From the IMG/VR virus record IMGVR_UViG_3300029267_001685, positions 1 to 21,089 of that record: 21,089 nucleotides of DNA. The stretch is one strand, 5' to 3'. The notes below the pieces were generated by a model, which was given only the letters and a program-made list of their open reading frames with translations, did no database searches and had not been told where the DNA came from. Source of the DNA: a virus. Made by a program: the position numbers and the translations under genes. Positions 96-16,063 of the stretch are shown one piece after another; position 1 is the stretch's first letter, and every line of letters begins with the position of its first letter.

Positions 96-719
96 ATGAG
101 AATGAAGATCAAGGATCGAATCAAGAGTATGCGTCGGGTGAAGGCGTCGGAGATCCGGCCGAACCCGCGGAACTGGCGGACACACCCCGAGAATCAGCAG
201 AACGCCCTTCGGGGGATCCTGGCCGAGATCGGGATAGTGGACGTCCTTATTGCTCGGGAGCTCGAAGACGGTGGCCTCGAACTGATTGACGGGCACCTTC
301 GGGCGGACACCGAACCAGACACGAAGTGGCCGGTGGTAGTGCTCGACGTCACGGCGGAGGAAGCGGACAAGATCCTGGCGACCCTGGATCCACTCGCGGC
401 CATGGCGGAGGCGGATCCGAAAGCGGTGGCGGATCTCCTGGCGGAGATCGAGACGGAGAGTGAAGCGGTCCAGGCACTCCTTGACAGTTTGCCGGCCGAT
501 CTCGAGTCGGCGCCCTCGGCGGAAGATGAGGCGGCGGCCGAGGAGCCAGGCGAAGGGCCGGGGCTCGGCAACCCGGTCGTGAGCTTCACGCTGGTCTTCG
601 AGGACGATGAGGAGCAAGCCACCTGGTACCGCTTCCTTCGCCACCTTCGGGACAAGTACCCCGAGGAGGAGACTCACGCCGGCCGCCTGGTGCAATTCAT
701 TCAGGAGCAAGACATTTGA
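96..719 (+). CDS. ParB/sulfiredoxin-fold domain protein (IbrB-like), first copy
   Basis: A 207-residue protein. Residues 15-75 look like a phage ParB N-terminal (ParB/Srx) domain: a box-I-like stretch IRPNPRNWRTHP, then a hydrophobic strand and LIDGHLRADT, which matches the conserved DG-x-x-R loop that binds nucleotide in this fold. An Ala/Glu/Asp-rich segment follows (about 100-150), then a folded tail (VVSFTLVFEDDEEQATWYRF) of a kind I associate with phage ParB-like proteins. The ATG at 102 (Met3) has GGAGAG at 88-93 with 8-nt spacing and is the better start; the ATG at 96 is too close. The stop overlaps the next gene's TTG start, so the two are translationally coupled. The neighbouring PAPS-reductase-like gene recalls the IbrB/IbrA pair of E. 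coli. The domain call is firm; the reaction is unknown. Confidence 0.8.
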   Translation: MRMKIKDRIKSMRRVKASEIRPNPRNWRTHPENQQNALRGILAEIGIVDVLIARELEDGGLELIDGHLRADTEPDTKWPVVVLDVTAEEADKILATLDPLAAMAEADPKAVADLLAEIETESEAVQALLDSLPADLESAPSAEDEAAAEEPGEGPGLGNPVVSFTLVFEDDEEQATWYRFLRHLRDKYPEEETHAGRLVQFIQEQDI

Positions 720-1702
720 GCCGATACAAACGCTACATAGACACGGATGTCGTGACCGAGGCTCGCAAGCGGATCCGGCATATCTTCGACGTCTTCGACT
801 CGGTGGCGGTATGCTTCTCTGGCGGCAAGGACTCGCTTGTCACGATGCGGCTGGTGTGGGAGGTGGCGCAGGAGCTGGGGCAGAAGCACGTCAACGTCAT
901 TTTCCGCGACGAGGAGCTGATAGCGGATCCGGTGATAGACTTCGTGGATGAGTACCGCCAGAAGCCATGGGTGAAAATGCGGTGGTTCGCGGTACCGTTG
1001 AAGGGCGACAAGTTCATTCTCGGCCGGCGGTGGTCCTACGTTCAATGGGACCGCGACCGGAAGTGGATCCGCGAAAAGCCACCGTGGGCAATCGTCCAAC
1101 CAGAAGGGGAGTATCGGGTCCTCGACCAGTACACGGCCGACGCTGTGTGCGCGGAAGGGCTCCCCGGTTCGGTCGCGTTCGTGACGGGGATCCGAGCCGA
1201 TGAGTCATTTGTCCGGTACCGCTCCGTTGTCAACAAGCTCCACGAGAACTACATCAACACGCCAATGGGAGCACCGGCCAACAGTCGCGTGAAGACGTGC
1301 AAGCCAATCTACGACTGGACCGAAAACGACATTTTCAAGTGGTTAGGGGAGAACGAGGTCCGGTATTGTTCGCAGTACGACGCCCAACACGTTGCGAAGC
1401 TCGGCCTTCGGGTAGCCACTCCCTTGCACGCGGAACACGCGAAGAGGCTCGGCAAGTGGCGGGAGATTGATCCAGGGTTCTATGACCGCCTCCTTGAGAT
1501 ATTCCCCGAGATGCGAGTGCAAGATCGGTACTGGTCGGAGTACGACGGAGCCGGCGTGAAGGCTCGATACTCGGACGGGTTTGCCGGATGCCGGCGGTAT
1601 ATCGAGGAAATGATTGACGAACCCGAACAACGCAAGGTCGCAGAAGCGGTATTCGGAAATGGTCAAGCTAAACAGGAAGGCGCCGGCCGCCTACCCGCCT
1701 GA
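716..1702 (+). CDS. Phosphoadenosine-phosphosulfate-reductase-like PP-loop protein (IbrA/DUF3440-like)
   Basis: A 328-residue member of the PP-loop ATP pyrophosphatase superfamily. The motif VCFSGGKDS at about residues 32-40 is the pyrophosphate-binding loop of PAPS reductases and related sulfurtransferases. Later come TGIRADES (about 158-165) and KPIYDWTENDIFKWL (about 198-212), both typical of the phage PAPS-reductase-like/DUF3440 group. Such proteins activate a substrate by adenylation; classical sulfate assimilation is unlikely in a phage. The start is TTG at 716 because AGGAG lies at 703-707 with 8-nt spacing, and it overlaps the preceding stop. Pairing with ParB-fold proteins resembles IbrA-IbrB, and more distantly the DndC-DndB logic of DNA phosphorothioation, but no DndA/D/E genes are present. 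Biochemical role unproven. Confidence 0.85.
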   Translation: MSRYKRYIDTDVVTEARKRIRHIFDVFDSVAVCFSGGKDSLVTMRLVWEVAQELGQKHVNVIFRDEELIADPVIDFVDEYRQKPWVKMRWFAVPLKGDKFILGRRWSYVQWDRDRKWIREKPPWAIVQPEGEYRVLDQYTADAVCAEGLPGSVAFVTGIRADESFVRYRSVVNKLHENYINTPMGAPANSRVKTCKPIYDWTENDIFKWLGENEVRYCSQYDAQHVAKLGLRVATPLHAEHAKRLGKWREIDPGFYDRLLEIFPEMRVQDRYWSEYDGAGVKARYSDGFAGCRRYIEEMIDEPEQRKVAEAVFGNGQAKQEGAGRLPA

Positions 1703-1811
1703 CATCCTCCTGAGCGCCCTCGTGTCGGGAAGTATCAAACGGACGCTAGTCCCGTTAAACAAGGCGGAGCAAGCTCTCAGGGCCAGGAAAGCAGCAAGGG
1801 GGACCAAATGA
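1659..1811 (+). CDS. Small hypothetical protein between PAPS-reductase-like and methyltransferase genes
   Basis: A 50-residue basic protein (MVKLNRKAPAAYPPDILLSA to the end RKAARGTK) whose start lies inside the end of the PAPS-reductase-like gene in another frame. The TGA stop overlaps the ATG of the methyltransferase gene (ATGA at 1808-1811), the signature of a genuine coupled gene. The start is uncertain: ATG 1659 has no clear Shine-Dalgarno, and ATG 1614 would add 15 residues but its GAGGA is only two bases away. No family recognised; the many Lys/Arg residues suggest nucleic-acid or partner binding at most. Confidence 0.5.
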   Translation: MVKLNRKAPAAYPPDILLSALVSGSIKRTLVPLNKAEQALRARKAARGTK

Positions 1812-2374
1812 GATTCAACTCGGTCGAGCACGTCGAGGCGTACCAACGGTTCGGTCGGTTTCCGCGGATCCACAAGCCGATGTTCGAAGCGGTCATCGAG
1901 CAAGCCAGGGGAACGCGGATCCTCGACGTGTGTTGTTCGACGGGACTTCTGGGGGAGCATTTTCGGACGCTAGGCTTCGACGCTATCGGTATCGAGCGGG
2001 ACCTGGAGGCTATCGCGGCGGCAAAGGACCACGGCGTTGGTCTTCCAATCACGGCGATGTCGATAGACCCGAGCACCGCGGCGGAGGTCTACAAACTAAT
2101 CGAGGCCGCCGGTGTGACTGTTGTGGTCGCCAGGCGTTGTTTTTCGGAGATATTTTGCGAGGAGCGGGACTTCGGTCCGGTGTTCTGCCGGGGGATCCAG
2201 GCCGCCGGCGTCGACGAATTGTTTTTGCAGGGGCGGGCGCCGACGAAGCGGGCAACCCACCCGATCCCAAACCTAGACGCCGAGATCGAGGTGTGCGGCG
2301 GAGCGTTCGTTGAACGTCGCCGGTGGCCGGTCGGTCCGGTAGCGTATTTGACACCAAAGGAGGGGACCGGATGA
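1808..2374 (+). CDS. Class I SAM-dependent methyltransferase-like protein
   Basis: A 188-residue protein with a Rossmann-type SAM-binding signature: RILDVCCSTGLLGEHF (about residues 37-52) corresponds to motif I, followed by FDAIGIERD (motif II acidic residue that would contact the SAM ribose). No NPPY/DPPY motif IV of amino-DNA methyltransferases and no PC motif of C5 enzymes is seen. It is therefore not an obvious DNA methylase; the substrate could be a small molecule, RNA, protein or modified base. A Cys/Arg-rich stretch VVARRCFSEIFCEERDFG occupies the usual motif IV region. Coupled by ATGA overlaps at both ends, so it belongs to the ParB/PAPS cassette. Fold call good, substrate unknown. 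Confidence 0.7.
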   Translation: MRFNSVEHVEAYQRFGRFPRIHKPMFEAVIEQARGTRILDVCCSTGLLGEHFRTLGFDAIGIERDLEAIAAAKDHGVGLPITAMSIDPSTAAEVYKLIEAAGVTVVVARRCFSEIFCEERDFGPVFCRGIQAAGVDELFLQGRAPTKRATHPIPNLDAEIEVCGGAFVERRRWPVGPVAYLTPKEGTG

Positions 2375-2640
2375 TTCCGACCAGTTTCGACGAATCGAAT
2401 TACGTCTTGGCAAAGCCGGCGGCTATGACTCATGAAGAGTGCGGTTGTCTTTCTGTCTTTGTCGGGCCGTCGACTGAGGGAACGCTTTTTGTTATTTCAT
2501 GTTGGAAGCTCACGGCCGAGGAGCTGGAGGAGATCCAGCGGACCGGCCGGGTTTGGCTCGGAATAGTAGGTCACACCATGCCGGCGGCATGGGTTCTCGG
2601 AACGAGCCCCTTTCACTCACAGGAGGAAACAAAGCCATGA
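2371..2640 (+). CDS. Conserved-looking phage hypothetical protein, 89 aa
   Basis: The start at ATG 2371 is chosen because an AGGAGG-type Shine-Dalgarno (about 2358-2363) precedes it and it overlaps the methyltransferase stop; the stop itself overlaps the next ATG (2637). The protein has an N-terminal part containing CGC and a C-terminal stretch WKLTAEELEEIQRTGRVWLG followed by MPAAWVLGTSPF, a pattern I associate with uncharacterised phage proteins. No catalytic motif or membrane segment is evident. Its conserved place between the methyltransferase and the second ParB-like gene suggests membership of the same functional unit. Confidence 0.65.
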   Translation: MIPTSFDESNYVLAKPAAMTHEECGCLSVFVGPSTEGTLFVISCWKLTAEELEEIQRTGRVWLGIVGHTMPAAWVLGTSPFHSQEETKP

Positions 2641-3173
2641 AGCCAATGAAAGACGATCCGGTATTGCATATCCGATGGTACCCCGCAAAGGACCTCAACG
2701 CGAACGCATGGAATCCCAACGCGGTATTGAAATCGGAGCTCCGATTGTTGGAGACGTCCATCGTTCGAACCGGGTGGATCCAGCCTATATTGATCTCGCC
2801 GGCCAGGACCATTATCGACGGGTATCATCGCTGGCGACTCTCACAAGAAAGCAAGGCACTCCTCAAGCGGTACCGCGGCCAGGTACCTTGCGCGGTGCTC
2901 GACTGTTCGGAGGCCGAGGCCAAGATGCTCACGGTGCGAATCAATCGGGCGAAGGGGACTCACGTCGCGGTCCGCCTGGCGGAGCTGGTGCAACAACTCA
3001 TCGACGATCACGGCCTCTTGCCGGAAGAGGTAGCGACCGGCATTGGGGCCGACCTCGGAGAGGTGGATCTCCTCTATCAAAATTCCATCTTCAAGGCTCG
3101 CAACCTGGCGGAAGCTCCCTACTCGCGGGCATGGTACCCCGCGGAGGGAACGCCACCAGGCCGGCCAGGCTAA
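2637..3173 (+). CDS. ParB/sulfiredoxin-fold domain protein (IbrB-like), second copy
   Basis: A 178-residue protein with a ParB-like domain: WYPAKDLNANAWNPNA, then an ETSIVRTGWIQPILIS strand and TIIDGYHRWRLS, where DGYHR is the conserved nucleotide-binding loop. A helical region after AKMLTVRINRAKG (about 100-150) matches the DNA-binding-like helices that follow the domain in IbrB-type proteins. The start at ATG 2637 is fixed by AGGAGG at 2621-2626 and by overlap with the previous stop. It is clearly diverged from the first ParB-like gene of the cassette, so this is not a recent tandem duplication. The stop codon overlaps the stop of the convergent HNH gene. Function inferred only: nucleotide or nucleic-acid binding, perhaps guiding the PAPS-reductase-like enzyme. 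Confidence 0.8.
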   Translation: MKPMKDDPVLHIRWYPAKDLNANAWNPNAVLKSELRLLETSIVRTGWIQPILISPARTIIDGYHRWRLSQESKALLKRYRGQVPCAVLDCSEAEAKMLTVRINRAKGTHVAVRLAELVQQLIDDHGLLPEEVATGIGADLGEVDLLYQNSIFKARNLAEAPYSRAWYPAEGTPPGRPG

Positions 3174-3652
3174 AACAAGGAGGGTTGCTTCGGTGGTCTC
3201 GGCGGATCCTCAACCCCGTTTAGTTCTCGCATCCTGGCGCCGTGAGCCAGGATCTCCGCGAACCCCGGCAAGGGGCCGTCGGCGCGGATCTTCTCGGGGC
3301 GGCCGGACGCTCGAAGGTGGTCCGCGGAGAACCGCGGGAAGTTTCGGGTCGCCAGGGGGGCAAACCGGAAGCCGGCGGCGAGTGTCGCAGCATACCGGGC
3401 AAAGGCGTCGGGGCACTTCGGCCGGCAATGGAGGATGATGTGGCAACGGTAGCAAAGCGAGTACTGGTCAATATTGTCGCCAAACGGCTCGGAGTAGTCT
3501 TCGGCGTGCGCCTCGATCACCCCCTCCGTTTGTCCGCAAACTTGACACTTGACCGGTCGGGTCCGCCGGCCGGCGTCGTACTCCTTCTTCAACCAAACGC
3601 CGGACTTCGCTCGCAAGCTCGGGGAGAATCCGTTGTACGGGTTCACGGTCAC
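3170..3652 (-). CDS. HNH-type zinc-binding nuclease-like protein
   Basis: A 160-residue protein with CQVCGQTEGVIEAHAEDYSE and then LCYRCHIILHCR: two zinc-binding CxxC pairs with an embedded His, as in HNH/ββα-metal phage endonucleases. The N-terminal NPYNGFSPSLRAK is typical of a phage HNH subfamily. GTG 3652 overlaps the upstream HTH stop; GTG 3646 has better spacing from AAGGG and may be the true start. The C-terminus ends KQPSLF, a possible sliding-clamp-binding tail. It is the last gene of the leftward set and converges on the second ParB-like gene with overlapping stop codons. Nuclease activity is likely by family but not shown; a role in packaging, recombination or homing is possible. 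Confidence 0.75.
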   Translation of the reverse strand: MTVNPYNGFSPSLRAKSGVWLKKEYDAGRRTRPVKCQVCGQTEGVIEAHAEDYSEPFGDNIDQYSLCYRCHIILHCRPKCPDAFARYAATLAAGFRFAPLATRNFPRFSADHLRASGRPEKIRADGPLPGFAEILAHGARMRELNGVEDPPRPPKQPSLF

Positions 3653-3846
3653 TTTCCCTTCTTCGGCGGGCGTCCTACCGCCCTAGGTTTCTTGGCAAAC
3701 CTCTTGAGGTCCGCCTCGGAGATTGCCCAATTGCGGCCAATCTTCACGCCTAGCCGGCCAGCTTCGCAGAACTGGCGGACGCGGCGCTCATCGAGACCGA
3801 GCTTTTCAGCGGCCTCGGCGGTCGTAAAGTATTTTGCTCTTGTCAT
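3649..3846 (-). CDS. Small helix-turn-helix (excisionase/MerR-like) DNA-binding protein
   Basis: A 65-residue protein. KYFTTAEAAEKLGLDERRVR (about residues 5-24) is a helix-turn-helix of the HTH_17/excisionase type, followed by the wing-like GRLGVKIGRNWAISEADLKRF and a basic tail GRPPKKGK. The start is chosen at ATG 3846 because the promoter -10 element at 3854-3859 puts the transcript start at about 3847, giving a leaderless or nearly leaderless message; ATG 3852 is the alternative. No Shine-Dalgarno is visible. It lies directly under a promoter containing the CCGATAGCGG site shared with the two other leftward units, so it is the best local candidate for the regulator of that site. That link is inference. 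Confidence 0.75.
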   Translation of the reverse strand: MTRAKYFTTAEAAEKLGLDERRVRQFCEAGRLGVKIGRNWAISEADLKRFAKKPRAVGRPPKKGK

Positions 3847-3853
3847 GTTCATA

Positions 3854-3882
3854 ATACTACCGCTATCGGCTGGCAGAGTCAA
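3854..3882 (-). promoter_or_regulatory. Leftward promoter III with CCGATAGCGG spacer element
   Basis: On the minus strand, -35 TTGACT (3877-3882), a 17-bp spacer ending in CCGATAGCGG (3860-3869) and -10 TAGTAT (3854-3859). The same ten bases fill the same place in the other two leftward promoters. It drives the HTH and HNH genes, probably leaderless. Confidence 0.7.
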
Positions 3883-3888
3883 GGGGGC

Positions 3889-4185
3889 TCAGGCGTCCTC
3901 GGTGGGCTCCTGGCCGTCGGTGGGGAATAGGTCCAATTGGCCGGCGGCACAATCCAGGCCGGCAAAGAGGGGCCGCTGGACTAGCTTCTCGGGCGGCTCG
4001 GGCTCCTGGGGCGCCGGCGGCTCGGGCTGGTCGTCCAGGCGGAAGGGCGTCGGCACGTCTTCCGCGAACGGGCAAGCGGACTCGTGGCACTCGGGCGTCA
4101 GTTGTCCAGGGTGCTCACAACAGCCGTCGGTGCCCTGGTGGGGGCAATCGTGTCGCCAGGTGGGGAGAATGTTCAACTCTATCAT
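3889..4185 (-). CDS. Small Cys/His-rich protein with proline-rich linker and QLDLF motif
   Basis: A 98-residue protein of unknown family. The N-terminal part (residues 14-38) holds CPHQGTDGCCEH and CHESACPF, a Cys/His array suited to binding one or two zinc ions. A Pro/Glu-rich linker (about 53-67) follows, then QRPLF (70-74) and QLDLF (83-87); QLDLF equals the consensus peptide for binding the bacterial beta sliding clamp. The start at ATG 4185 overlaps nothing but sits 5 bp from the stop of the preceding gene, with GGAAAG upstream. I infer a small replisome-interacting protein; an unrelated structural use of the motif is possible. Confidence 0.65.
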   Translation of the reverse strand: MIELNILPTWRHDCPHQGTDGCCEHPGQLTPECHESACPFAEDVPTPFRLDDQPEPPAPQEPEPPEKLVQRPLFAGLDCAAGQLDLFPTDGQEPTEDA

Positions 4186-4189
4186 CGGT

Positions 4190-4663
4190 CTACTTTCCGT
4201 TTTTGAGTGTGTTCAGGACCTCGGTCCAGGTGTCGCCGGATGCCAGCTCAAGGGAGCAAAACCCTGCCAGGTGCTCTACCGACACGGAACACCGGCGTCC
4301 AAAGCTCTTGCGTTTCAACGCCTTCTCCAGTTCGCGGGCCTCCGCCAGGGCGTCACGGCACTCGACAAACGCCTCGTACTCGGTGGCGGCCTTCTCCAAC
4401 GCGGCCAGGGCGGTCGGATCCGCGTCAACGTCAAGGACAAAACGGGCGGCCTTCCCAAGCGAGTCGGCTACCCCTTTCAAAACGTGCAAGCTACACAACT
4501 CCACCAGTTTCTTCGTCGTGGGCTTCAACGCCTTGAGCTCCTGTCGAGCCTCAGCTTGCTCGGGGGCTTTCGCGTCGTTCGGTCTGAACGTGGTCCAGAC
4601 CTGGCGCCCGGGGTTTTGTTTCTCCGCCAGGCGTTTCACTCGTTGTCGGATAGTCGCACTCAT
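4190..4663 (-). CDS. Hypothetical helical protein, 157 aa
   Basis: Not recognised. The protein starts MSATIRQRVKRLAEKQ, is rich in Ala, Glu, Lys and Leu, and from about residue 35 to 125 looks like long amphipathic helices (for example ECRDALAEARELEKALKRK), so a coiled coil or helical bundle is likely. No signal peptide, membrane segment or catalytic motif is seen. The start is well supported by GGAGGA just upstream in the minus-strand sense. It is the fifth gene of the unit started by the promoter at 6698-6725 and is separated from the upstream DUF932 gene by 84 bp containing a small hairpin. Confidence 0.7.
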   Translation of the reverse strand: MSATIRQRVKRLAEKQNPGRQVWTTFRPNDAKAPEQAEARQELKALKPTTKKLVELCSLHVLKGVADSLGKAARFVLDVDADPTALAALEKAATEYEAFVECRDALAEARELEKALKRKSFGRRCSVSVEHLAGFCSLELASGDTWTEVLNTLKNGK

Positions 4664-4704
4664 CGCACTCCTCCAGGGTCAAGGGTCAAGGGCCAATCCC
4701 GTCG

Positions 4705-4724
4705 GGCTCCACTCCGTTGGAGCC
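4705..4724. other. Intergenic stem-loop between DUF932 and downstream gene
   Basis: A perfect 7-bp inverted repeat (GGCTCCA / TGGAGCC) with a 6-nt loop in the 84-bp gap between two leftward genes. There is no T-run on either side, so it is not a standard terminator. It may protect the DUF932 message or tune readthrough. A tandem GGGTCAA repeat lies just beside it. Confidence 0.4.
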
Positions 4725-4747
4725 GTCAGGGGCGGGCCGTCAACCGC

Positions 4748-5800
4748 CTAGCTGGCCGTCACGATGCCGGCAATGCGGCAAGCGGCGTCAAAGGCTCGGG
4801 CCTTCATGTCGCGGCCGGGGCCGGCCAGGGTCACGTTGAACCGCGTCTCGGCCTTTTGCCGGGGCGTGGCGCCTCGCCGGGGCAGGTGGTCAATATGCTC
4901 GGTGACCGCGTTGAACGCGGCCCATGCGGATCCTGCAATGCCGGGGAGTCGCTGGCGGTCGTTGTGGTAGCAATCCGTTATGGCGGAGCGGGTCTCGGAG
5001 ATCCTCTTCGCTCGCAGCTCGGTGTAGTCGGGATCCTCCTTCGGGATCCGCGGGCACATCACGTCAAGGTAAGTGGCCCACTCGTCGGTGGTCATTTTCT
5101 TCGCGGCCAGGTCGCGGGCCGTGCTGGAGTGCTCATCGAACCGCGTGTTCGCCATGGACAGAATCCCGCGGGCCTCTTCGAGTTTGCCGTCGATCCGGCC
5201 GGTGTGGCGGATAGTCAGGTCGCGGACGGTCCCCTCCTTCAAGGCAATCGCGTAGGTGTTCGCACAAACAACGCGAACGTTGCACGGTCCGAACTTTATA
5301 GCCCCCGTCCCGTCGTGGGTGAGGCTCATCAGAATATACCGTTTCAGAGCGTCGTCGTCGGTAATGTAATCCACGTCGGGCAATCTCGCCAGGAGCACCA
5401 CCCGCCGGCCGCCGGCCAGGGAAAAGGCCGACTCGTACTGCATTTGCCCCTCTTCGACCAGGGCGTCAACAAACTGGAACGCCTCGGTGTTCTGGACAAC
5501 GGTGTATCGCTCGGACACCAAACCGAGGAACAGGTTATTGTCGTCGCGGACGTTCACCTTCACGGTCGGGTACTCTTCCCACAAGAGCGTCTCGGTGGGG
5601 CCGTCGGGCGTCTCGATTGTCCGCGGGGTGCCGATTGCCATGGGGCGTTGCACCACCTCCCAATCCAACTGAGCGGCCGTCAGGGCTTCCTGACTGGACA
5701 TCGCGTGGTCAAGGACGGTTCCAAGGCCATGCCAGGCGGGAGTCAAGGCAAAGGCGGCTTCGGCGGTTCCGTCGGCTCGTTCTGTAATCTCGTGACTCAT
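4748..5800 (-). CDS. DUF932 / TIGR03299-like phage-plasmid protein
   Basis: A 350-residue protein recognised by its N-terminal pattern: PAWHGLGTVLDHAMSSQEAL then LDWEVVQRPM, followed by NNLFLGLVSERYTVVQNTEA and FVDALV, and by a core with RVVCANTYAIAL and IRHTGRI. These are hallmarks of the DUF932 (phage/plasmid-related TIGR03299) family, usually 300-400 aa, found in phage early regions and plasmids with an ill-defined role in DNA metabolism. The start is ATG 5800 with GAGGAGA upstream; an upstream in-frame extension would overlap the preceding gene and lacks such a site. Complete and intact in length. Cellular role unknown; its place in the early unit fits DNA metabolism. Confidence 0.85.
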   Translation of the reverse strand: MSHEITERADGTAEAAFALTPAWHGLGTVLDHAMSSQEALTAAQLDWEVVQRPMAIGTPRTIETPDGPTETLLWEEYPTVKVNVRDDNNLFLGLVSERYTVVQNTEAFQFVDALVEEGQMQYESAFSLAGGRRVVLLARLPDVDYITDDDALKRYILMSLTHDGTGAIKFGPCNVRVVCANTYAIALKEGTVRDLTIRHTGRIDGKLEEARGILSMANTRFDEHSSTARDLAAKKMTTDEWATYLDVMCPRIPKEDPDYTELRAKRISETRSAITDCYHNDRQRLPGIAGSAWAAFNAVTEHIDHLPRRGATPRQKAETRFNVTLAGPGRDMKARAFDAACRIAGIVTAS

Positions 5801-5825
5801 AGCAATTCTCCTCAAGTAAAAGGGG

Positions 5826-6008
5826 TTAGGAAATACGTCGCATTCGTTGTCGGTAGGGGGAAGGGTTTGCCCGCAAGTAGGCGTCGGCCTCCTCGCGGGA
5901 CGGGAATCGGTGGTCAAGATCCAGCCACCCAAAATAGTCGTCCCGGAACTCCACTAGCCAGACTTGCGGCTCGCGGGGCGGATCGGCAAAGAGGGTCAAC
6001 TGGATCAT
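5826..6008 (-). CDS. Small protein with N-terminal QLTLF motif
   Basis: A 60-residue protein beginning MIQLTLFADPPREPQVWLVE, then a short alpha/beta-looking core with DHRFPSREEADAYLRANP. The last part resembles a small substrate-recognition fold but I cannot name a family. ATG 6008 is chosen because GGAG (6017-6020) lies 8 nt upstream; GTG 6017 overlaps that Shine-Dalgarno. The N-terminal QLTLF resembles the beta-clamp-binding peptide and is mirrored in two or three other proteins of the leftward set. Function unknown. Confidence 0.65.
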   Translation of the reverse strand: MIQLTLFADPPREPQVWLVEFRDDYFGWLDLDHRFPSREEADAYLRANPSPYRQRMRRIS

Positions 6009-6013
6009 GGGTC

Positions 6014-6382
6014 TCACTCCGCAACAGCAATCAAGTCTTCAATGGAAACGGTCAGCACGTCGGCCGGTTGCCAATCCAGGGCGCCGTAGTAGCACGGGCG
6101 GTCAACGCGGGTCAGGGCAACGTGGCGGCCGCCGGGGGCGTACACCTTGACCAGGCCGGTCTTGTGACCGCGGTCGCAGAACTCCAGGCAGGCCAGCCAA
6201 ACGGAGTCATTCAGGGAGCGGCCTTCGCGGGGCTCGCCTTCGCCAAACATCTCCAGGGAGGCGCCACCGTCGGGCCTCGGGGTGAAGGGGGCGTCGGGGG
6301 CAATTACGGCCAGGTAGTCCGAGGCAAAATGCCCGCCGTACAAGCAAATCTCGCCAACAATGGTTTTCGCGGGGGTGGTCAT
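6014..6382 (-). CDS. Hypothetical protein, 122 aa
   Basis: Not recognised. The protein starts MTTPAKTIVGEICLYGGHFASDYLAVIAPD (first part shown by MTTPAKTIVG) and looks like a small mixed alpha/beta globular protein with several aromatic residues and three cysteines; no motif stands out. The start has an AAGGAG Shine-Dalgarno at correct spacing. The next gene begins within about 8 bp of its stop. Second gene of the unit transcribed from the promoter at 6698-6725. Confidence 0.7.
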   Translation of the reverse strand: MTTPAKTIVGEICLYGGHFASDYLAVIAPDAPFTPRPDGGASLEMFGEGEPREGRSLNDSVWLACLEFCDRGHKTGLVKVYAPGGRHVALTRVDRPCYYGALDWQPADVLTVSIEDLIAVAE

Positions 6383-6394
6383 GGGGGGGCTCCT

Positions 6395-6652
6395 TTACTT
6401 TTGCATTTGCCAAGTTCGGTAGCTATGGAAACCAGCGGGGCGCCGGCTGGCCGGGTAGCGGTGGACGCCGGGGAGTGGCATCCAAACATTGCCGGCGGTA
6501 TCCAGGCGGATTACGGTACCGCCATCGTCGGCATATTCGCGGTAGGGGTGCCCACCGTGCGGACCGTGGAAGCGGCCTTCCTTGCCGGTGGTCCAGTAGT
6601 GAACGCCGTTCACCTTCACGCAATCGTCGGTAGTGGTTCCAAGTACGGTCAT
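6395..6652 (-). CDS. Hypothetical protein, 85 aa, first gene of leftward unit II
   Basis: Not recognised. The sequence contains VKVNGVHYWTTGKEGRFHGP and GYR/DDGGTVIRLDTAGNVW-like segments rich in Gly, His, Tyr and Trp, suggesting a small beta-rich fold. ATG 6652 is preferred because AAAGG precedes it by 8 nt, leaving a leader of about 40 nt from the predicted transcript start; ATG 6697 or 6691 would lie at or before that start. It opens the unit that continues through the 122-aa, 60-aa, DUF932, 157-aa and 98-aa genes. Confidence 0.65.
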   Translation of the reverse strand: MTVLGTTTDDCVKVNGVHYWTTGKEGRFHGPHGGHPYREYADDGGTVIRLDTAGNVWMPLPGVHRYPASRRPAGFHSYRTWQMQK

Positions 6653-6697
6653 GGTCGTGGCCTTTCGTGTTGTGCTGTTGTTTCCTCTCATGCCCAT

Positions 6698-6725
6698 ATT
6701 ATACCGCTATCGGAAGATTTTGCAA
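6698..6725 (-). promoter_or_regulatory. Leftward promoter II with CCGATAGCGG spacer element
   Basis: On the minus strand, -35 TTGCAA (6720-6725), 16-bp spacer ending in CCGATAGCGG (6704-6713), consensus -10 TATAAT (6698-6703). A 29-bp operator begins 43 bp beyond the -35 (6768), at exactly the same distance as in promoter I. Confidence 0.75.
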
Positions 6726-6767
6726 GAGGCATTTGCCGTGAGGCTAGAATTATTTTTACGGTGGCGT

Positions 6768-6796
6768 CCGAACTCGGGAGTCGGTCTCGACTTCGG
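6768..6796. repeat. 29-bp operator-like repeat, copy 1
   Basis: It begins with CCGAACTCGG and ends with TCGACTTCGG, two CCGA-NN-TCGG-type near-palindromes whose starts lie 19 bp apart, with GTCGGT between them. An A8 tract and CTTTT follow at 6801-6813. Same length and layout as the copies at 6865 and 8100. Likely protein-binding site upstream of leftward promoter II. Confidence 0.65.
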
Positions 6797-6864
6797 ACAG
6801 AAAAAAAACTTTTCCGACATCGGTATGATTTCGGGGTGGACACTTGCGAAAATAATAACGCCGG

Positions 6865-6893
6865 CCGAACTCGTTTGTCGGTACCGAGTTCGG
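6865..6893. repeat. 29-bp operator-like repeat, copy 2
   Basis: A perfect 9-bp inverted repeat CCGAACTCG (6865-6873) / CGAGTTCGG (6885-6893), with GTCGGTAC inside. It lies 97 bp from copy 1 in the 246-bp noncoding gap 6698-6943. The remainder of this gap contains AT-rich stretches and an isolated CCGACATCGG at 6814-6823; I see no gene there. Confidence 0.65.
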
Positions 6894-6943
6894 AGCCACA
6901 TCGCGGACAAGCCCCTGACGGGTGGTGTCGTTCGGTTCATGAC

Positions 6944-7153
6944 TCAATCCTCCGCGAAGACGCTGGCAACCAGTCGGCCGACTCGTGTCGTTGGGTGCCA
7001 GGTTATGACGGCAACCGAGACGCCGGCCAGGTCTTGCCGTTCTCTCCGTCGAACGGCTCGTATTGCATAAACGGCGGTTTTATAGGTGCGTCTGGTCTCG
7101 GGACAATACCAGCCGTCGGCGCGTTCGCAAATGTTGTATGCGGTGTATCGCAT
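6944..7153 (-). CDS. Small basic hypothetical protein, 69 aa
   Basis: Not recognised. The protein begins MRYTAYNICERADGWYCPET and has an Arg-rich middle (AIRAVRRRERQDL) followed by a hydrophobic strand AGVSVAVITWHP. Two cysteines and several tyrosines are near the N-terminus. The start is supported by GAGGAGG upstream at normal spacing, and its start is separated from the 141-aa gene's stop by only a few bases. Third and last gene of leftward unit I. Basic charge would allow nucleic-acid binding, but nothing specific is visible. Confidence 0.65.
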   Translation of the reverse strand: MRYTAYNICERADGWYCPETRRTYKTAVYAIRAVRRRERQDLAGVSVAVITWHPTTRVGRLVASVFAED

Positions 7154-7156
7154 CGC

Positions 7157-7582
7157 TCAATCCTCCTCGGGAAGCATTACGGTCAGGACGGGCTCGGCGT
7201 CGTCGCCAGGGCCGCAAACAATCTTCAACTCATGGTATCGCCGGCGGCCGGTACCGGTGATAATCACCTTGAACCACCTGGTCGTTTCGGTGGCTCGGTG
7301 GGCACACGTCTTCGACATCCACAAAACGTCATGCCAGACGCCGGCAAAGTCGTTCAAGTATTTCTCGTTGTCAACGGCCTTCTCGATCAGGGCGAACACC
7401 GCGGCCGTCATGGCTATGGGGTAGCGGAAATGTTGACGGGAGACGTCCGCCAGGGGGCCTTGCATCGCGTCAACGAGAACTCCGTCCTCAATAGCATCCT
7501 GGCGAGTGTAGGCGTATATCACTTCGCCAAAAACGTCGTCAACGGGCTCCGCGTCGGCAGGGAACAATTCAAGCTGAGTCAT
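7157..7582 (-). CDS. DUF6573-like protein with N-terminal QLELF motif
   Basis: A 141-residue protein. VFGEVIYAYTRQDAIEDGVL at about residues 17-36, followed by HFRYPIAMTAAVFALIE, matches my memory of the DUF6573 family, small proteins of unknown function on phages, plasmids and integrative elements. The N-terminus MTQLELFPAD carries a QLxLF peptide like the bacterial beta-clamp-binding motif. The C-terminal half (TRWFKVIITGTGRRRYHELK) looks like a beta-hairpin. The start is supported by GAGGAG upstream. Second gene of leftward unit I. Family call fairly good; role unknown. Confidence 0.75.
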   Translation of the reverse strand: MTQLELFPADAEPVDDVFGEVIYAYTRQDAIEDGVLVDAMQGPLADVSRQHFRYPIAMTAAVFALIEKAVDNEKYLNDFAGVWHDVLWMSKTCAHRATETTRWFKVIITGTGRRRYHELKIVCGPGDDAEPVLTVMLPEED

Positions 7583-7594
7583 GGGTTCAACTCC

Positions 7595-8008
7595 TCAAAA
7601 GGGGCAACGGTCCGCGGCGGAATGCCGGGGACGCCGGGAAAGTATCTCTATCGCCTGGCGGTAGGTTTCACTCGCGGGCGGCAACAGGTCTTGAGGCTCA
7701 CAGAGAACCTCGTAAAGGGCGGCGGCCGGATCCCCATAGGCGTTCAACTCGGGGAACTCGTAAGTCATGCTCGCGGCCAGGCCGTCAAAGCAAGGTATTT
7801 CGGAGTGGTCGCCGGTGGTAAAGGCTTTGCGGTAAACGGCTTTGAAGTGCATACCATAGCCGGACCGCTCAAATGCCTCAGCTCGGAGGGTCCATTTTCG
7901 CTCGCGGGCATACAGCTCATTCTCGCGAAGTTCGCAGTACAAGCATCGGACGTCGGTCCAATCCAGGCCGGCCTCGCGTGCTTCGTGTTTCAGCTCGTTT
8001 GTGTTCAT
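7595..8008 (-). CDS. Hypothetical protein, 137 aa, first gene of leftward unit I
   Basis: Not recognised. The N-terminal part MNTNELKHEAREAGLDWTDV is helical, followed by CLYC (about 23-26) and another helix; the C-terminal part is rich in Pro, Glu and Leu (EVLCEPQDLLPPASETYRQA). A single CxxC might bind metal but lacks a clear partner pair. The start has a very strong GGAGGA Shine-Dalgarno, and the gene lies directly under promoter I, so it is likely the first early message. Confidence 0.7.
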   Translation of the reverse strand: MNTNELKHEAREAGLDWTDVRCLYCELRENELYARERKWTLRAEAFERSGYGMHFKAVYRKAFTTGDHSEIPCFDGLAASMTYEFPELNAYGDPAAALYEVLCEPQDLLPPASETYRQAIEILSRRPRHSAADRCPF

Positions 8009-8029
8009 GTTGTTTCCTCCACTGTCTAT

Positions 8030-8057
8030 ATTCTACCGCTATCGGTATATTTTGCAA
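8030..8057 (-). promoter_or_regulatory. Leftward promoter I with CCGATAGCGG spacer element
   Basis: On the minus strand, -35 TTGCAA (8052-8057), 16-bp spacer ending in CCGATAGCGG (8036-8045), -10 TAGAAT (8030-8035), then a short leader with GGAGGA before the ATG at 8008. The 29-bp operator starts 43 bp beyond the -35 (8100). Confidence 0.75.
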
Positions 8058-8099
8058 TAGGAAATCGGCCGAATTCCCAAAATACTTTTGGGGTCGCGA

Positions 8100-8128
8100 C
8101 CGAAGTCGGTGGTCGGTACCGAGTTCGG
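8100..8128. repeat. 29-bp operator-like repeat, copy 3
   Basis: CCGAAGTCGG (8100-8109) and CCGAGTTCGG (8119-8128), each a perfect CCGA-NN-TCGG palindrome, with GGTCGGTA between them. It is followed by an A8 tract and CTTTTT (8132-8144), as at copy 1. It sits between leftward promoter I and the rightward terminase gene, so it could act on both. Confidence 0.7.
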
Positions 8129-8162
8129 CCGAAAAAAAACTTTTTGAATTTCAACGAATTAC

Positions 8163-10331
8163 ATGGTTGACCTGGCCGAATTAAAGACCGCCGAGAAAAA
8201 GCTCGACCAACAGCTTCGCAAAATCCGCAAGCTGACGGGTTCGGACTCCGAACGTGATCGAGACGCGGCGCGCAAGCGACGGCTCCGAGCGGCCGGCCGA
8301 GAGGTGGTGATCCCCCCGTGTGCGGATCCAGAGCGACGGGCTCGCCTCGAAGCAAACGACGAGGAGTGGCTCGCATACTACTGCGGCGACTTGTTCTGGT
8401 ATGACTTCACCGGCCAGCAGCGAGCAATGATCGAGGCAATTCGCCACGCTATTCGATACGGCGGTGACCAGTCACTCGCGGCCAGCCGTGGGGAAGGCAA
8501 GACCAAGCTATTCGAGCGCATGCTCCTAAAACATTCGTTGTCCGGCGAAGTGACGTTCGCGGTGCTATTCGCAGCAACCGGATCCGCGGCTCAGGATTCT
8601 CTTCAATCTATCCGCGACACAATTGAAACCAACGAGAAACTGTACGACGATTACCCCGAGGTGTGCGTCCCCGTGCGAGCTCTGGAGAACACTCCGAACC
8701 GCGCTCATTACCAGACCGTGAGCGGCAAGCGGATTGACAACGGGGTAGACTTCTCGCAAGTGCCGAGTCGGTTCTCCTGGTGCGGCCATGAGATCGTTTT
8801 CCCGCGGGTCCCCGGTTCACCGTCCAATGGGGCTATCATCGCAACGAGGGGCCTAGACGCGGCGGTGAGGGGCCTGAACAAGAACTCAAGGCGGGTCCAG
8901 GTGGCCGGCATTGACGACCCCGACACTGAGGAGACGGTCCGGTCCGAGGAGCAAGCTCACAAGCTGGAGGAGCGGATTGACCGGGCTATCGCCGGCCTCG
9001 GCGGACAACAACGGTCGGTGGCTCGCGTGATGCTCTCGACGATCCAGCGGCGGGAGTGCGTCTCTGCATGGTACACCGACCCGAGTCGCAAGCCCTCATG
9101 GAAGGGCAAGCGGTTTCGGTTTCTCTTGAAGCAACCCGACCGAATGGACCTGTGGGATGAGTACGTCCAGCTTCGCCAGCTCAACCAACAGACAACAGAC
9201 AACGAGGGCAACTTCACGGACCCGAACGCTCGCGGTGCTCATAATTTTTACCTTGAAAATCGGGAGGCGATGGACGCCGGGGCGGAGGTGGCGAATCCGC
9301 ACAGGTTTGACGCACAGGAACTACCGGACGGCTCTCAGCTCGAAGTCTCTGCGTTACAACGGTATTACAACGAAGTAGCCAGAATCGGGCCGGAAGCCGT
9401 GGCATCCGAGTACGACAATGATCCGCCGGAAGAGACGGGACCGATTGAGAGCGGTATCACGGCTCACCGGATCCAGCGACAGGTGAACGGGTTTGACCGG
9501 CGAGTTATCCCTCCTGGTTGCACGGTCTTGACGCAAGGGATTGACGTCCGAAAGATTGCTCTTCATTACGTCGTTCGAGCATGGCAGCCAGGAGCGACCG
9601 GCTTCACAATTCATCATGACGTCCAAGAGGTCCGCGGGACGGTCCGCGGATCCGACGAAGGGGTCGAGCACTCGCTTATTCGGGCTCTGGAGGAGCGGCG
9701 GGACGATATGGAGCGAAATCCGTACAAGACCGTTGACGGCGAAATCATCCCGATCACAACAACTCTAATCGACGCCGGTTGGAAAACGCAAGCTATCTAT
9801 CACTTTTGCCGCCTGGCCGGCAAGGGCTGGTGGCCGGCTATGGGCTTTGGCAAGTCAAACGGATGCGTCAAGGCGGCGTTCAATATGCCGAGCAAAGATA
9901 GTGCGACCCGCCGAAGCGGTGAGAACTGGTTTCTGACTTACCAGCGCAAGCCGAAGGTCTGGCTAGTCGCGTGCGACGCCGACAAGTGGAAGTCGTGGGA
10001 GCACGCCAGGTGGTTGACGGATCCGTCGCAACCTGGATCTATGACGCTATGGGGAAAGACGTCCGGCGGCAAGCGATTGTCGGAGGATGAGCAAAAACAT
10101 TTTGCCTACTCTAAACACCTCACGGCCGAGGTGGAAGCCGAGGAGGTAGTGAAGGGGATCCTACAACGAAGCTGGAAGCCCAAGTCGGACAATAATCATT
10201 GGTTCGATGCGAGTTATTTGTCGGACGTGGCGGCGAACATGGCGGGGATCCGGTTGCTCGGAACCGGCCATAGGGTAGTGAAGGCGGACGCCAGACCGAG
10301 CCTGGCGGATCTCAAGAAAGGGACGTCATGA
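8163..10331 (+). CDS. Terminase large subunit, GpA (lambda-type) family
   Basis: The 722-residue packaging motor that pumps DNA into the prohead and cuts it. The ATPase domain has Walker A SRGEGKT (108-114) and a Walker B-like strand VQVAGIDD (245-252). The nuclease domain shows QGIDVRK (acidic D461), TLIDAGW (D537) and HWFDASYLSD (D682/D688), the acidic cluster expected of the RNase H-like fold. Length agrees with the GpA family (about 600-720). ATG 8163 has no visible Shine-Dalgarno, unlike most neighbours, so it may use a leaderless message or another signal; I see no convincing rightward promoter in 8009-8162. No separate small terminase is recognised. The stop overlaps the next ATG (ATGA at 10328). 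Confidence 0.93.
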   Translation: MVDLAELKTAEKKLDQQLRKIRKLTGSDSERDRDAARKRRLRAAGREVVIPPCADPERRARLEANDEEWLAYYCGDLFWYDFTGQQRAMIEAIRHAIRYGGDQSLAASRGEGKTKLFERMLLKHSLSGEVTFAVLFAATGSAAQDSLQSIRDTIETNEKLYDDYPEVCVPVRALENTPNRAHYQTVSGKRIDNGVDFSQVPSRFSWCGHEIVFPRVPGSPSNGAIIATRGLDAAVRGLNKNSRRVQVAGIDDPDTEETVRSEEQAHKLEERIDRAIAGLGGQQRSVARVMLSTIQRRECVSAWYTDPSRKPSWKGKRFRFLLKQPDRMDLWDEYVQLRQLNQQTTDNEGNFTDPNARGAHNFYLENREAMDAGAEVANPHRFDAQELPDGSQLEVSALQRYYNEVARIGPEAVASEYDNDPPEETGPIESGITAHRIQRQVNGFDRRVIPPGCTVLTQGIDVRKIALHYVVRAWQPGATGFTIHHDVQEVRGTVRGSDEGVEHSLIRALEERRDDMERNPYKTVDGEIIPITTTLIDAGWKTQAIYHFCRLAGKGWWPAMGFGKSNGCVKAAFNMPSKDSATRRSGENWFLTYQRKPKVWLVACDADKWKSWEHARWLTDPSQPGSMTLWGKTSGGKRLSEDEQKHFAYSKHLTAEVEAEEVVKGILQRSWKPKSDNNHWFDASYLSDVAANMAGIRLLGTGHRVVKADARPSLADLKKGTS

Positions 10332-14571: not shown

Positions 14572-14604
14572 ACCCGGCGGGTAGCCTGCCCCTGCCCGCC
14601 GGGT
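14572..14604 (+). other. GC-rich stem-loop after the capsid gene
   Basis: A perfect 10-bp stem (14572-14581 with 14595-14604) and 13-nt loop, ten bases after the capsid stop. No T-run follows, so it is probably a message-protecting or partial attenuation hairpin rather than a full terminator. Confidence 0.5.
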
Positions 14605-14629
14605 GCCATATTTCAGCAGGGGCAAAACC

Positions 14630-14658
14630 AACGAACCAAACAGTAACGAACCAAACAG
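14630..14658 (+). repeat. Tandem 14-bp repeat just before the decoration-protein RBS
   Basis: AACGAACCAAACAG occurs at 14630-14643 and again at 14645-14658, the second running into the AGGAGG of the next gene. An A-rich, unstructured leader like this may raise translation. Confidence 0.6.
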
Positions 14659-14668
14659 GAGGCCAGTC

Positions 14669-16063
14669 ATGGCTCAAACACAAACACCCTCGCAACTGGC
14701 CGAAGACAACGGCCGGTACATTCCGCACACCCCGTCAAGTGCCGTCTATGGCGGCGACGTCGTAGTCGTGGGCACGATGCCCCTCATTGCTCCCGTCGAC
14801 ATCGCGGCCGCCGCCCTCGGGGCGCTTGACTCCGGTGGTATCTGGAAGGTCCCAAACACCGACGGCGAAAGCGGCTCCGAAGGGGACGCAATCTATTGGG
14901 ACGAAAACGGCAACCCCGAGGTCGGTACCGTGGGAACCGGATCCGCGACCGCGACCGCGAGCGGCAACCACCTCATGGGGTTTGCGGTGGCAGACTGGTC
15001 TGCGACGGATCGATTCATCCACGTCAAAATGACGTGTGCCGAGCGGACCGCGACCATCGCCGGCAGCGTGACAGCCGACGACATCACCGGCTCGGACTCC
15101 AGCCTCGGCATCGCCGGCAAGGCGGGAGCGAGCGGGGCCGGTGGCGCGATCGCGGTCACCGGTGGTGCTGGTGATACGGGCGCCGGCGGGGCGGTTACAG
15201 TCACGGGTGGTGCTGGTTCGTCCGAGGCCGGCGGAGCCGTGAGCATGGTCGGTGGTGCTGGCAACGGTGCCAACGCCGGCGGAGCGGCGAGCGTGACCGG
15301 TGGAGCTGGTGGAGCTGCTGGAGCCGGCGGAGCCGCGTCTTTAACCGGCGGGGCGCCGGCGAGCGGCAACGCGGCCGGCGGAGCGGCGAGCGTAGCGGGC
15401 GGAGCGGGCTCGGGTACCGGGGCCGGTGGTGCGACCACCCTGGTCGGCGGTGCATCGGGATCCGGTGCGACCGGCAACGGTGGCGCGATCTCGGCCACGG
15501 GCGGAGCCGCGTCGTCCACGAACGGAGCCGGCGGAGCGGCCAGTCTGGTCGGTGGTGCTGGTGCTGGTACGGGCGCCGGCGGCGCAATCGCCATCACGGG
15601 CGGCGAGAGTGGAGCCGGGGCAACCGGCAACGGCGGCGCAGTCGCCATTACTGGCGGGGCCGCGGGCTCGACGAACGGCAACGGCGGCGACATCACGCTG
15701 ACGCCGGGTGCCCTGGCCGGTACCGGGCGGAACGGAAAGGTTCACCTAGACGGGTTCTGCGCACTCATGACCGCTCAGACGATTGACATGAGTGACGCGC
15801 AGGTCGCGTTGACCGCGGTGACCCTCACGGGCAACTGGCTCCTGGTGGATCCGAACTCTTCGGGCGCCAGTGAAAATCTGTTGCTCCCGCCGGAAGCCGA
15901 CATGGCCGATGTCATGCTCATTATCAAAAACACTGGCGGCGAGCATATCGCCCTGCAAAACGACGCCGGCGGCGCAATCGGCACAATCGAGGACGCCGAG
16001 GCGGCTCTGGTGCATTGCGACGGTACCACCTGGACAATCATCCAGTTCACCGAGACGACGTAG
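14669..16063 (+). CDS. DUF2190-type capsid decoration protein with glycine-rich repeat and C-terminal domain
   Basis: A 464-residue protein in three parts. Residues 1-125 match the DUF2190 capsid-decoration pattern (DNGRYIPHTPSSAVYGGDVV, PVDIAAAALGALDSGG, EGDAIYWDENG). Residues about 147-353 hold twelve repeats of 15-18 residues with consensus (A/N)GGA-x-x-(V/L/I)-(T/V)-GGA, almost free of charge, a composition compatible with a polyglycine-II or stacked beta fibre. Residues 354-464 form a small beta-rich domain with ENLLLPPEADMADVMLIIKN and ending GTTWTIIQF. The start at ATG 14669 has AGGAGG upstream and a tandem leader repeat. It sits directly after the capsid gene, as cement proteins do. 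I infer surface fibres on the capsid; the ligand is unknown. Confidence 0.82.
   Translation: MAQTQTPSQLAEDNGRYIPHTPSSAVYGGDVVVVGTMPLIAPVDIAAAALGALDSGGIWKVPNTDGESGSEGDAIYWDENGNPEVGTVGTGSATATASGNHLMGFAVADWSATDRFIHVKMTCAERTATIAGSVTADDITGSDSSLGIAGKAGASGAGGAIAVTGGAGDTGAGGAVTVTGGAGSSEAGGAVSMVGGAGNGANAGGAASVTGGAGGAAGAGGAASLTGGAPASGNAAGGAASVAGGAGSGTGAGGATTLVGGASGSGATGNGGAISATGGAASSTNGAGGAASLVGGAGAGTGAGGAIAITGGESGAGATGNGGAVAITGGAAGSTNGNGGDITLTPGALAGTGRNGKVHLDGFCALMTAQTIDMSDAQVALTAVTLTGNWLLVDPNSSGASENLLLPPEADMADVMLIIKNTGGEHIALQNDAGGAIGTIEDAEAALVHCDGTTWTIIQFTETT
15107..15727 (+). repeat. Coding glycine-rich repeat array, twelve units
   Basis: About 620 bp of imperfect 45-54-bp units encoding AGGAxxVTGGAGxxxG-type peptides. 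Units differ in codons and in spacer lengths (15 to 18 residues), so the array is diverged rather than freshly duplicated. GCCGGCGGAGC and GGTGGTGCTGG recur. Confidence 0.85.

Follow-up and report, generated by a model that had tools for sequence, protein, structure and literature searches.

Pairs of genes encoding an IbrA-like PP-loop enzyme and an adjoining ParB-fold protein (IbrA/IbrB; phrog_424/phrog_2302) occur in phages and in enterobacterial plasmids; IbrA and IbrB are, for example, the annotations given to genes 4 and 5 of Mycobacterium phage Phlyer, and IbrA/IbrB-like genes, which in phages are known by name only, are annotated in >200 phage records. PP-loop enzymes with the fold of phosphoadenosine phosphosulfate (PAPS) reductase are also found in Dnd/Ssp phosphorothioation (DndC, alongside DndB) and in type 4 BREX (BrxP), and DpdB of the Dpd 7-deazaguanine DNA modification system is a ParB-like ATPase (PMC12839542). 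We analyzed the virus record IMGVR_UViG_3300029267_001685 from IMG/VR, hereafter the window, which comprises the whole record of 21,089 bases. The window carries a cassette in which genes for two ParB-fold proteins (ParB1 and ParB2) flank a gene for an IbrA-like enzyme, together with genes for a methyltransferase-like protein and a small HNH-like protein.

We compared the cassette across 105 nonredundant loci, consisting of 55 loci drawn from collections of viruses and genomes, with IbrA identities below 95%, and 50 further loci. Part of the first set was fetched by means of the methyltransferase, and the window is among the loci that went into the methyltransferase profile; the second set was picked on IbrA alone, with no selection for the methyltransferase. 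ParB1 lies upstream of IbrA in 45 of 47 testable loci of the first set and 46 of 47 of the second (91/94 total), and ParB2 lies downstream of IbrA in 52/52 and 40/40 (92/92 total), a recurrence of order far beyond chance. Pairwise distances among IbrA, ParB1, ParB2, and methyltransferase sequences are correlated (r 0.67-0.86, every permutation ≤0.41), in a comparison confined to these four cassette proteins. A preliminary description of this DNA, made from its letters alone, had proposed a joint system; when the neighborhoods of relatives were compared, the genes were not scattered and ParB1-IbrA-ParB2 was retained in nearly all 105 loci, so the proposal survives. The HNH-like protein is present in 43 of the 55 and 38 of the 50 loci (81/105), and it is rare elsewhere, with 1 occurrence in 50 phrog_424-type IbrA loci and 0 in 26 more distant terminase relatives of the window (L134-L159). 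Its minus-strand gene belongs to the unit, and the limits originally drawn at 96-3173 are thus too narrow.

In other loci, reading of the gaps between genes identified a GNAT acetyltransferase filling the place of the methyltransferase. Among the first 55 loci, the methyltransferase is present in 24 and GNAT in 18, never together, and one more GNAT in L034 scores below the profile threshold; the two do not occur together in any of the 48 loci that extend ≥1.2 kb past ParB2. With the profiles unchanged, the 50 fresh loci contained 13 methyltransferases, 22 GNATs, and again no locus with both. Over all 105 loci, co-occurrence is 0 versus 14.4 expected. The ParB1-IbrA-ParB2 core of the four-enzyme unit first described is upheld, whereas an invariant methyltransferase is not, as it is found in only 37 loci and the acetyltransferase takes its place in 41. 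Both enzymes use the same positions: GNAT lies between IbrA and ParB2 in 10 loci and after ParB2 in 30, and the methyltransferase does so in 6 and 30. On IbrA trees, at least 11 changes between the two states are needed for the first loci and at least 14 for a tree of 101 rows (76 labelled), which argues for repeated replacement rather than one ancient split. The relatives' GNAT matches GNAT Pfam families; it was considered as a phage Mu Mom protein and gave no match in a comparison limited to sequence. In L268, a 257-aa protein (5231-6001) with several cysteines and without a Pfam match lies between ParB1 and IbrA and may be a slot-type enzyme.

The phages and prophages that carry the cassette have hosts among Actinobacteria, Firmicutes, Rhizobium, Planctomycetes, and others, and the cultured carriers include Arthrobacter phage Salgado, Bacillus phage 031MP004, Mycobacterium phages prophi79-1 and Phlyer, and Rhizobium phage L338C. 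Salgado, Arthrobacter phage Laroye, and 031MP004 are of the methyltransferase type, L029 has a GNAT, and neither transferase was seen beside the Phlyer cassette. The cassette is rare in bacterial chromosomes (3/399, 1/392, and 1/398 genomes in three groups, each including the genome on which the group was centered), and no independent bacterial version was found in these three groups. L116, a contig of a Pirellulales metagenome-assembled genome, has ParB1-IbrA-methyltransferase-ParB2 and the HNH-like gene in the layout of the window, with 66% identity in IbrA; the terminase, portal, and capsid of the window have no detectable match in L116. Contig L132 has a terminase 92% identical to that of the window, and the interior of its cassette is deleted: at 1-362, an imperfect GTGGA..TCCT repeat marks the junction where codon ~49 of ParB1 continues, in frame, into the final ~36 codons of ParB2 to give an 85-aa fusion, and L133, the sister of L132, keeps a normal ParB2 end. 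Because L116 has the cassette but no detectable match to those three proteins, and L132 has lost the cassette interior, we regard the cassette as an accessory module that is passed among phages and is open to loss. Between the window and L116, ParB1, IbrA, and ParB2 show purifying selection, with ratios of nonsynonymous to synonymous substitution rates (dN/dS) of 0.16-0.24. In L037, whose locus is conserved in other respects, the IbrA and ParB2 frames (6166-6957) are interrupted by several in-frame stops, which may reflect a reassigned stop codon.

The IbrA-like protein of the window matches Pfam PAPS_reduct (E 1.6e-15) and phrog_2302 (E 7.9e-103 over residues 2-311), and its SGGKDS loop is intact and invariant in 47 aligned sequences. 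AlphaFold predicted a PP-loop ATP pyrophosphatase or adenylating fold, with a predicted local distance difference test (pLDDT) score of 90.6. The frame of this protein shifts near 1635-1650, leaving its last ~20 residues outside the family frame; the C-terminal motif of relatives, YPxxYVxxxxxGxxKRxIxPL, is missing from it and is encoded in the adjacent frame, at about 1644-1811. Nearly all relatives with a complete core have this C-terminal part fused, and the frameshift is confined to the window. The detached part is 48% identical to L116 in the +1 frame versus 25-27% in shifted frames, and its dN/dS is 0.40. Based on its match to the fused C-terminus of relatives and its in-frame identity to L116, we rejected 1659-1811 as an independent gene. 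Because the out-of-frame part is still family-like at this dN/dS, the frameshift may have arisen recently, may stem from an assembly error, or may be bypassed during translation.

The methyltransferase-like protein matches phrog_11826 (E 1.5e-27) and is 56% identical between the window and L116. Its AlphaFold model (pLDDT 92.5) has a class I methyltransferase fold, with Z scores of 13.8-15.5 over 153-174 residues, and in the alignment D40, G46, and the E63 region fit motif I and the acidic residue after strand 2; on the strength of this model, we classify the protein encoded at 1808-2374 as a predicted class I S-adenosylmethionine (SAM) methyltransferase. ParB1 matches phrog_723 (E 3e-16), and its profile matches ParB/Noc structures (E 2e-11); ParB2 matches phrog_2159 (E 4e-62), and its profile also matches SerK and SbnI, weakly. 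In profile comparison both proteins are closer to ParB/Noc than to SerK, and both have hits to the ParB domain found in phage DNA-methyltransferase fusions (phrog_498; E 2e-11 and 6e-15). Phage ParB-Methyltransf_23 fusions have been reported in a survey (PMC12704722); no ParB-methyltransferase fusion was recognized among the loci that we fetched. The ADN(K/R) motif of the ParB1 family reads LDP in the window, and ParB1 possibly starts at 102, where the L116 protein begins. No cassette neighbor was recognized as ParA in the annotations of relatives that we looked at, although no search was aimed at ParA. Together, these matches and models bear out the two ParB-fold proteins, the PP-loop PAPS-reductase-like enzyme, and the SAM methyltransferase-like protein that the preliminary description had named.

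Cys and His residues of the HNH-like protein are invariant or nearly so in 79 sequences. In nearly all of them, the first invariant His is followed by Ala, Ser, Asn, Leu, or Cys at what we interpret as the general-base position of HNH nucleases, and nuclease activity is therefore doubtful; judged by its motif, the protein probably binds zinc and contacts DNA as an accessory that does not cleave. Three observations led us to exclude from the cassette the 89-aa protein encoded between the methyltransferase and ParB2: its gene follows ParB2 in the near-identical phage L133, L116 lacks it, and unrelated phages carry it without the cassette. Open reading frames on the plus strand overlap across the cassette, with TTGA/ATGA overlaps at 716-719, 1808-1811, 2371-2374, and 2637-2640 (Table 1). 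Thus, the overlaps of the six genes originally described are real, whereas the count of six separate members is not: of the two small proteins taken as members, one is the split C-terminus of IbrA and the other is a passenger.

Table 1. Genes of the cassette and its immediate surroundings in the window
Feature	Position	Strand	Evidence or remarks
ParB1	96..719	+	ParB/Srx-fold domain and conserved C-terminal domain; phrog_723
IbrA-like PP-loop (PAPS-reductase-like) ATPase	716..1702	+	PAPS_reduct, phrog_2302, AlphaFold model
Detached C-terminal part of IbrA-like protein	1614..1811, internal ATG 1659	+	+1 frame; matches fused C-terminus of relatives
Class I SAM methyltransferase-like protein, exchangeable slot	1808..2374	+	phrog_11826, AlphaFold model
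89-aa protein, phrog_25433-like, passenger	2371..2640	+	Varying position and presence among relatives
ParB2, ParB/Srx-fold, IbrB-like	2637..3173	+	phrog_2159; IDGxHR and RINRAKGxH motifs
Small HNH-like zinc-finger protein	3170..3652	-	Motif CxxCGQ...HxEDYS...CxxCH...H; recurs beside cassette in relatives

PP-loop enzymes such as flavin adenine dinucleotide (FAD) synthase, CysD, and CysH, to which the IbrA model is nearest, adenylylate oxygen or phosphate, and ParB/sulfiredoxin (Srx) folds bind ATP, CTP, or GTP. Our preferred reading, which we hold at somewhat less than even confidence, is that the genes form an accessory modification system of the phage: IbrA would add a reactive group, probably to phage DNA, and a methyl or acetyl cap would follow. 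Gene content, gene order, the transferase exchange, the folds, the association with phages, and the loss by deletion are shown by the comparison, whereas the adenylylation, the nucleophile, the choice of DNA as substrate, and the evasion of restriction are inferred. In this scheme, the IbrA-like enzyme would use ATP to adenylylate an oxygen of the substrate, and the activated oxygen would be replaced or decorated with a nucleophilic group, either an amine or a thiol; the two ParB/Srx-fold proteins would bind nucleotide and load IbrA onto its target, presumably with the HNH-like protein as accessory. The methyltransferase would then cap the installed group, and GNAT would acetylate the same group in sister phages. 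Since methyl and acetyl transfer alternate, both enzymes should use one nucleophile, for which an amine is the simplest candidate that accepts both; the alternation is thus a clue to the chemistry that makes the product predictable. The target would most likely be the phage's own DNA, our first choice because ParB folds bind nucleoside triphosphates, phage ParB-methyltransferase fusions exist, and both ParB proteins match phrog_498; RNA or a free nucleotide is a lesser possibility, given that the methyltransferase looks like a small-molecule or RNA enzyme. Decoration of nucleic acid is further suggested by the presence in some loci of dioxygenases dependent on 2-oxoglutarate and iron (2OG-Fe; L039, L041, L034, and L192) or of an MT-A70 methyltransferase (L192, with a protein similar by sequence in L196). 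DpdB sets a precedent for a ParB-like protein in DNA modification (PMC12839542). A swapped end group might allow escape from modification-specific restriction. At similar, less than even odds, the cassette could represent a new class of nucleic-acid hypermodification, with a PP-loop/ParB core and a methyl or acetyl cap (sometimes oxidized) whose mutually exclusive forms are repeatedly exchanged in an arms race at one chemical position. The dedicated modification chemistry suggested at the outset is consistent with the IbrA fold and the methyltransferase/GNAT exchange; its sulfur component is not supported, as DndC and CysH models score far under their cutoffs and IbrA has one conserved Cys.

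Several observations count against modification of phage DNA by this cassette. The closest fold to the IbrA model is the PAPS domain of FAD synthase (Z 18.9), an enzyme that acts on a small molecule, followed by CysD (16.6) and adenosine phosphosulfate (APS) reductase (15.6). The methyltransferase resembles UbiG, PrmA, and Bud23, which are small-molecule, protein, and rRNA methyltransferases, respectively, and not amino-DNA methyltransferases. About a quarter of the loci have neither methyltransferase nor GNAT, and the Fisher value of 2.7e-11 for their mutual exclusion is not a true probability, since the loci are related. Lastly, the IbrA frame of the window is broken near the C-terminus, and this copy may be impaired unless the break is an assembly error or is overcome by translational frameshifting. 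The fold of FAD synthase, the weak SerK and SbnI matches of ParB2, and the likeness of the methyltransferase to small-molecule enzymes would also fit modification of a free nucleotide or cofactor ahead of its incorporation (a deoxynucleoside triphosphate or a flavin-like compound), with the ParB-fold proteins acting as SerK- or sulfiredoxin-like nucleotide kinases; however, polymerase, kinase, or hydrolase genes do not travel with the cassette, and ParB/Noc is a closer match than SerK for ParB1 and ParB2 alike, so that we consider this explanation unlikely. We give the same low standing to modification of tRNA or rRNA, in which IbrA would act on a tRNA base in the manner of TilS, TtcA, or NcsA, the methyltransferase or GNAT would finish the product, and phage translation would be shielded from host anticodon nucleases. 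NcsA, TtuA, and TilS/MesJ are indeed among the fold matches of IbrA, and the methyltransferase fold is close to that of Bud23; yet the RNA-enzyme folds match more weakly (Z about 12-13 versus 15-19 for FAD synthase, CysD, and CysH), ParB domains are tied to DNA or nucleoside triphosphates, and no RNA-binding domain was seen.

Decay of the cassette in the window phage, with the frameshifted IbrA as a dying gene on its way to an L132-like deletion, appears improbable: the frameshift is found only in the window and the L132 deletion provides an end state, but the other genes and the out-of-frame part of IbrA are intact and under purifying selection, and a single-base assembly error is equally likely. 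Less probable still is backbone phosphorothioate chemistry of the Dnd/Ssp kind with IbrA as the counterpart of DndC. IbrA has weak DndC matches (5e-8 in NCBIfam and 3e-8 in PADLOC), and DndB is a ParB-superfamily protein (PMC11662687); against these, IbrA scored 32.2 bits with the curated DndC model TIGR03183, for which the cutoff is 290, and it has one conserved cysteine (C218, in 45/47 sequences, with other Cys columns in ≤20/47), whereas DndC requires a [4Fe-4S] cluster (PMC11662687). No DndD- or DndE-like gene was identified beside the cassette, and an acetylated phosphorothioate would be chemically odd. Solved DndC is absent among the IbrA fold matches listed, an absence that carries no weight. 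The curated CysH models gave 19.7 bits (TIGR02057, cutoff 254) and 19.9 bits (TIGR00434, cutoff 165). By these sequence criteria, the window IbrA is classified as neither Dnd (score and cysteines) nor assimilatory CysH (score). The least probable explanation is that these proteins regulate host or prophage expression, as described for E. coli IbrA/IbrB; the IbrA/IbrB annotation in several phages is in line with it, but the active site is intact and a swappable transferase would be pointless for a plain regulator.

Elsewhere in the window, family searches identified a gpA-type terminase, a capsid-protease fusion, and a DUF932 protein. A 1642-aa plus-strand frame at 3242-8170, opposite the DUF932, HNH-like, and other genes, was rejected as a gene and attributed to the high GC content of the DNA as a shadow frame. 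Two direct repeats of 138 nt (6676-6813 and 8008-8145, 72% identical) and three copies of a 32-nt element (CGGCCGAACTCG...GGTACCGAGTTCGG; at 6765, 6862, and 8097) lie upstream of the terminase gene and are possible regulatory or replication elements. A strongly repetitive Gly-Ala-rich protein with VTGGAG repeats (14603-16063), perhaps a virion decoration protein, is encoded downstream of the capsid-protease fusion. The window (at 1-10) and L132 (at 1-5), which are independently assembled related contigs, begin ≤5 bases apart, and this coincidence of contig starts suggests that the left edge of the window is a physical end of the genome or carries a repeat.

Among known systems, the direct relatives of the cassette are genes 5-8 of Arthrobacter phage Salgado and genes 79-84 of Bacillus phage 031MP004, in which ParB, PAPS reductase, ParB, and methyltransferase occur in one run; they differ from the window in the order of methyltransferase and ParB2 and in having an unsplit IbrA. 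In Microbacterium phage Hendrix (L007, 745-5146), a PAPS-reductase-like gene stands in a run with an annotated glucosyltransferase, methyltransferase, and N-acyltransferase, a tailoring-like set. The PP-loop PAPS-reductase fold is common to the cassette and to Dnd/Ssp and BrxP; unlike these systems, the cassette lacks Fe-S cysteines and an identified DndD or DndE, its ParB is doubled, and its transferase is exchangeable. It also differs from Dpd in having a PP-loop enzyme instead, with no tRNA-guanine transglycosylase (TGT; DpdA) adjoining. IbrA/IbrB-like phage genes are already known, and in the full-text literature that we searched we found IbrA/IbrB annotations and remarks on PAPS reductases only; neither the second ParB nor the HNH companion nor the exclusive, exchangeable methyltransferase/GNAT slot is described there. 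The phrog_2302 subfamily differs in just these features from the phrog_424 type, whose loci contain the methyltransferase in 0/42, the HNH-like protein in 1/50, and GNAT in 1/50; in phrog_2302 loci a second ParB lies upstream, an HNH-like companion is present, and one slot accepts either transferase. If its target is phage DNA, the cassette would add a hypermodification family with interchangeable end groups to these known systems.

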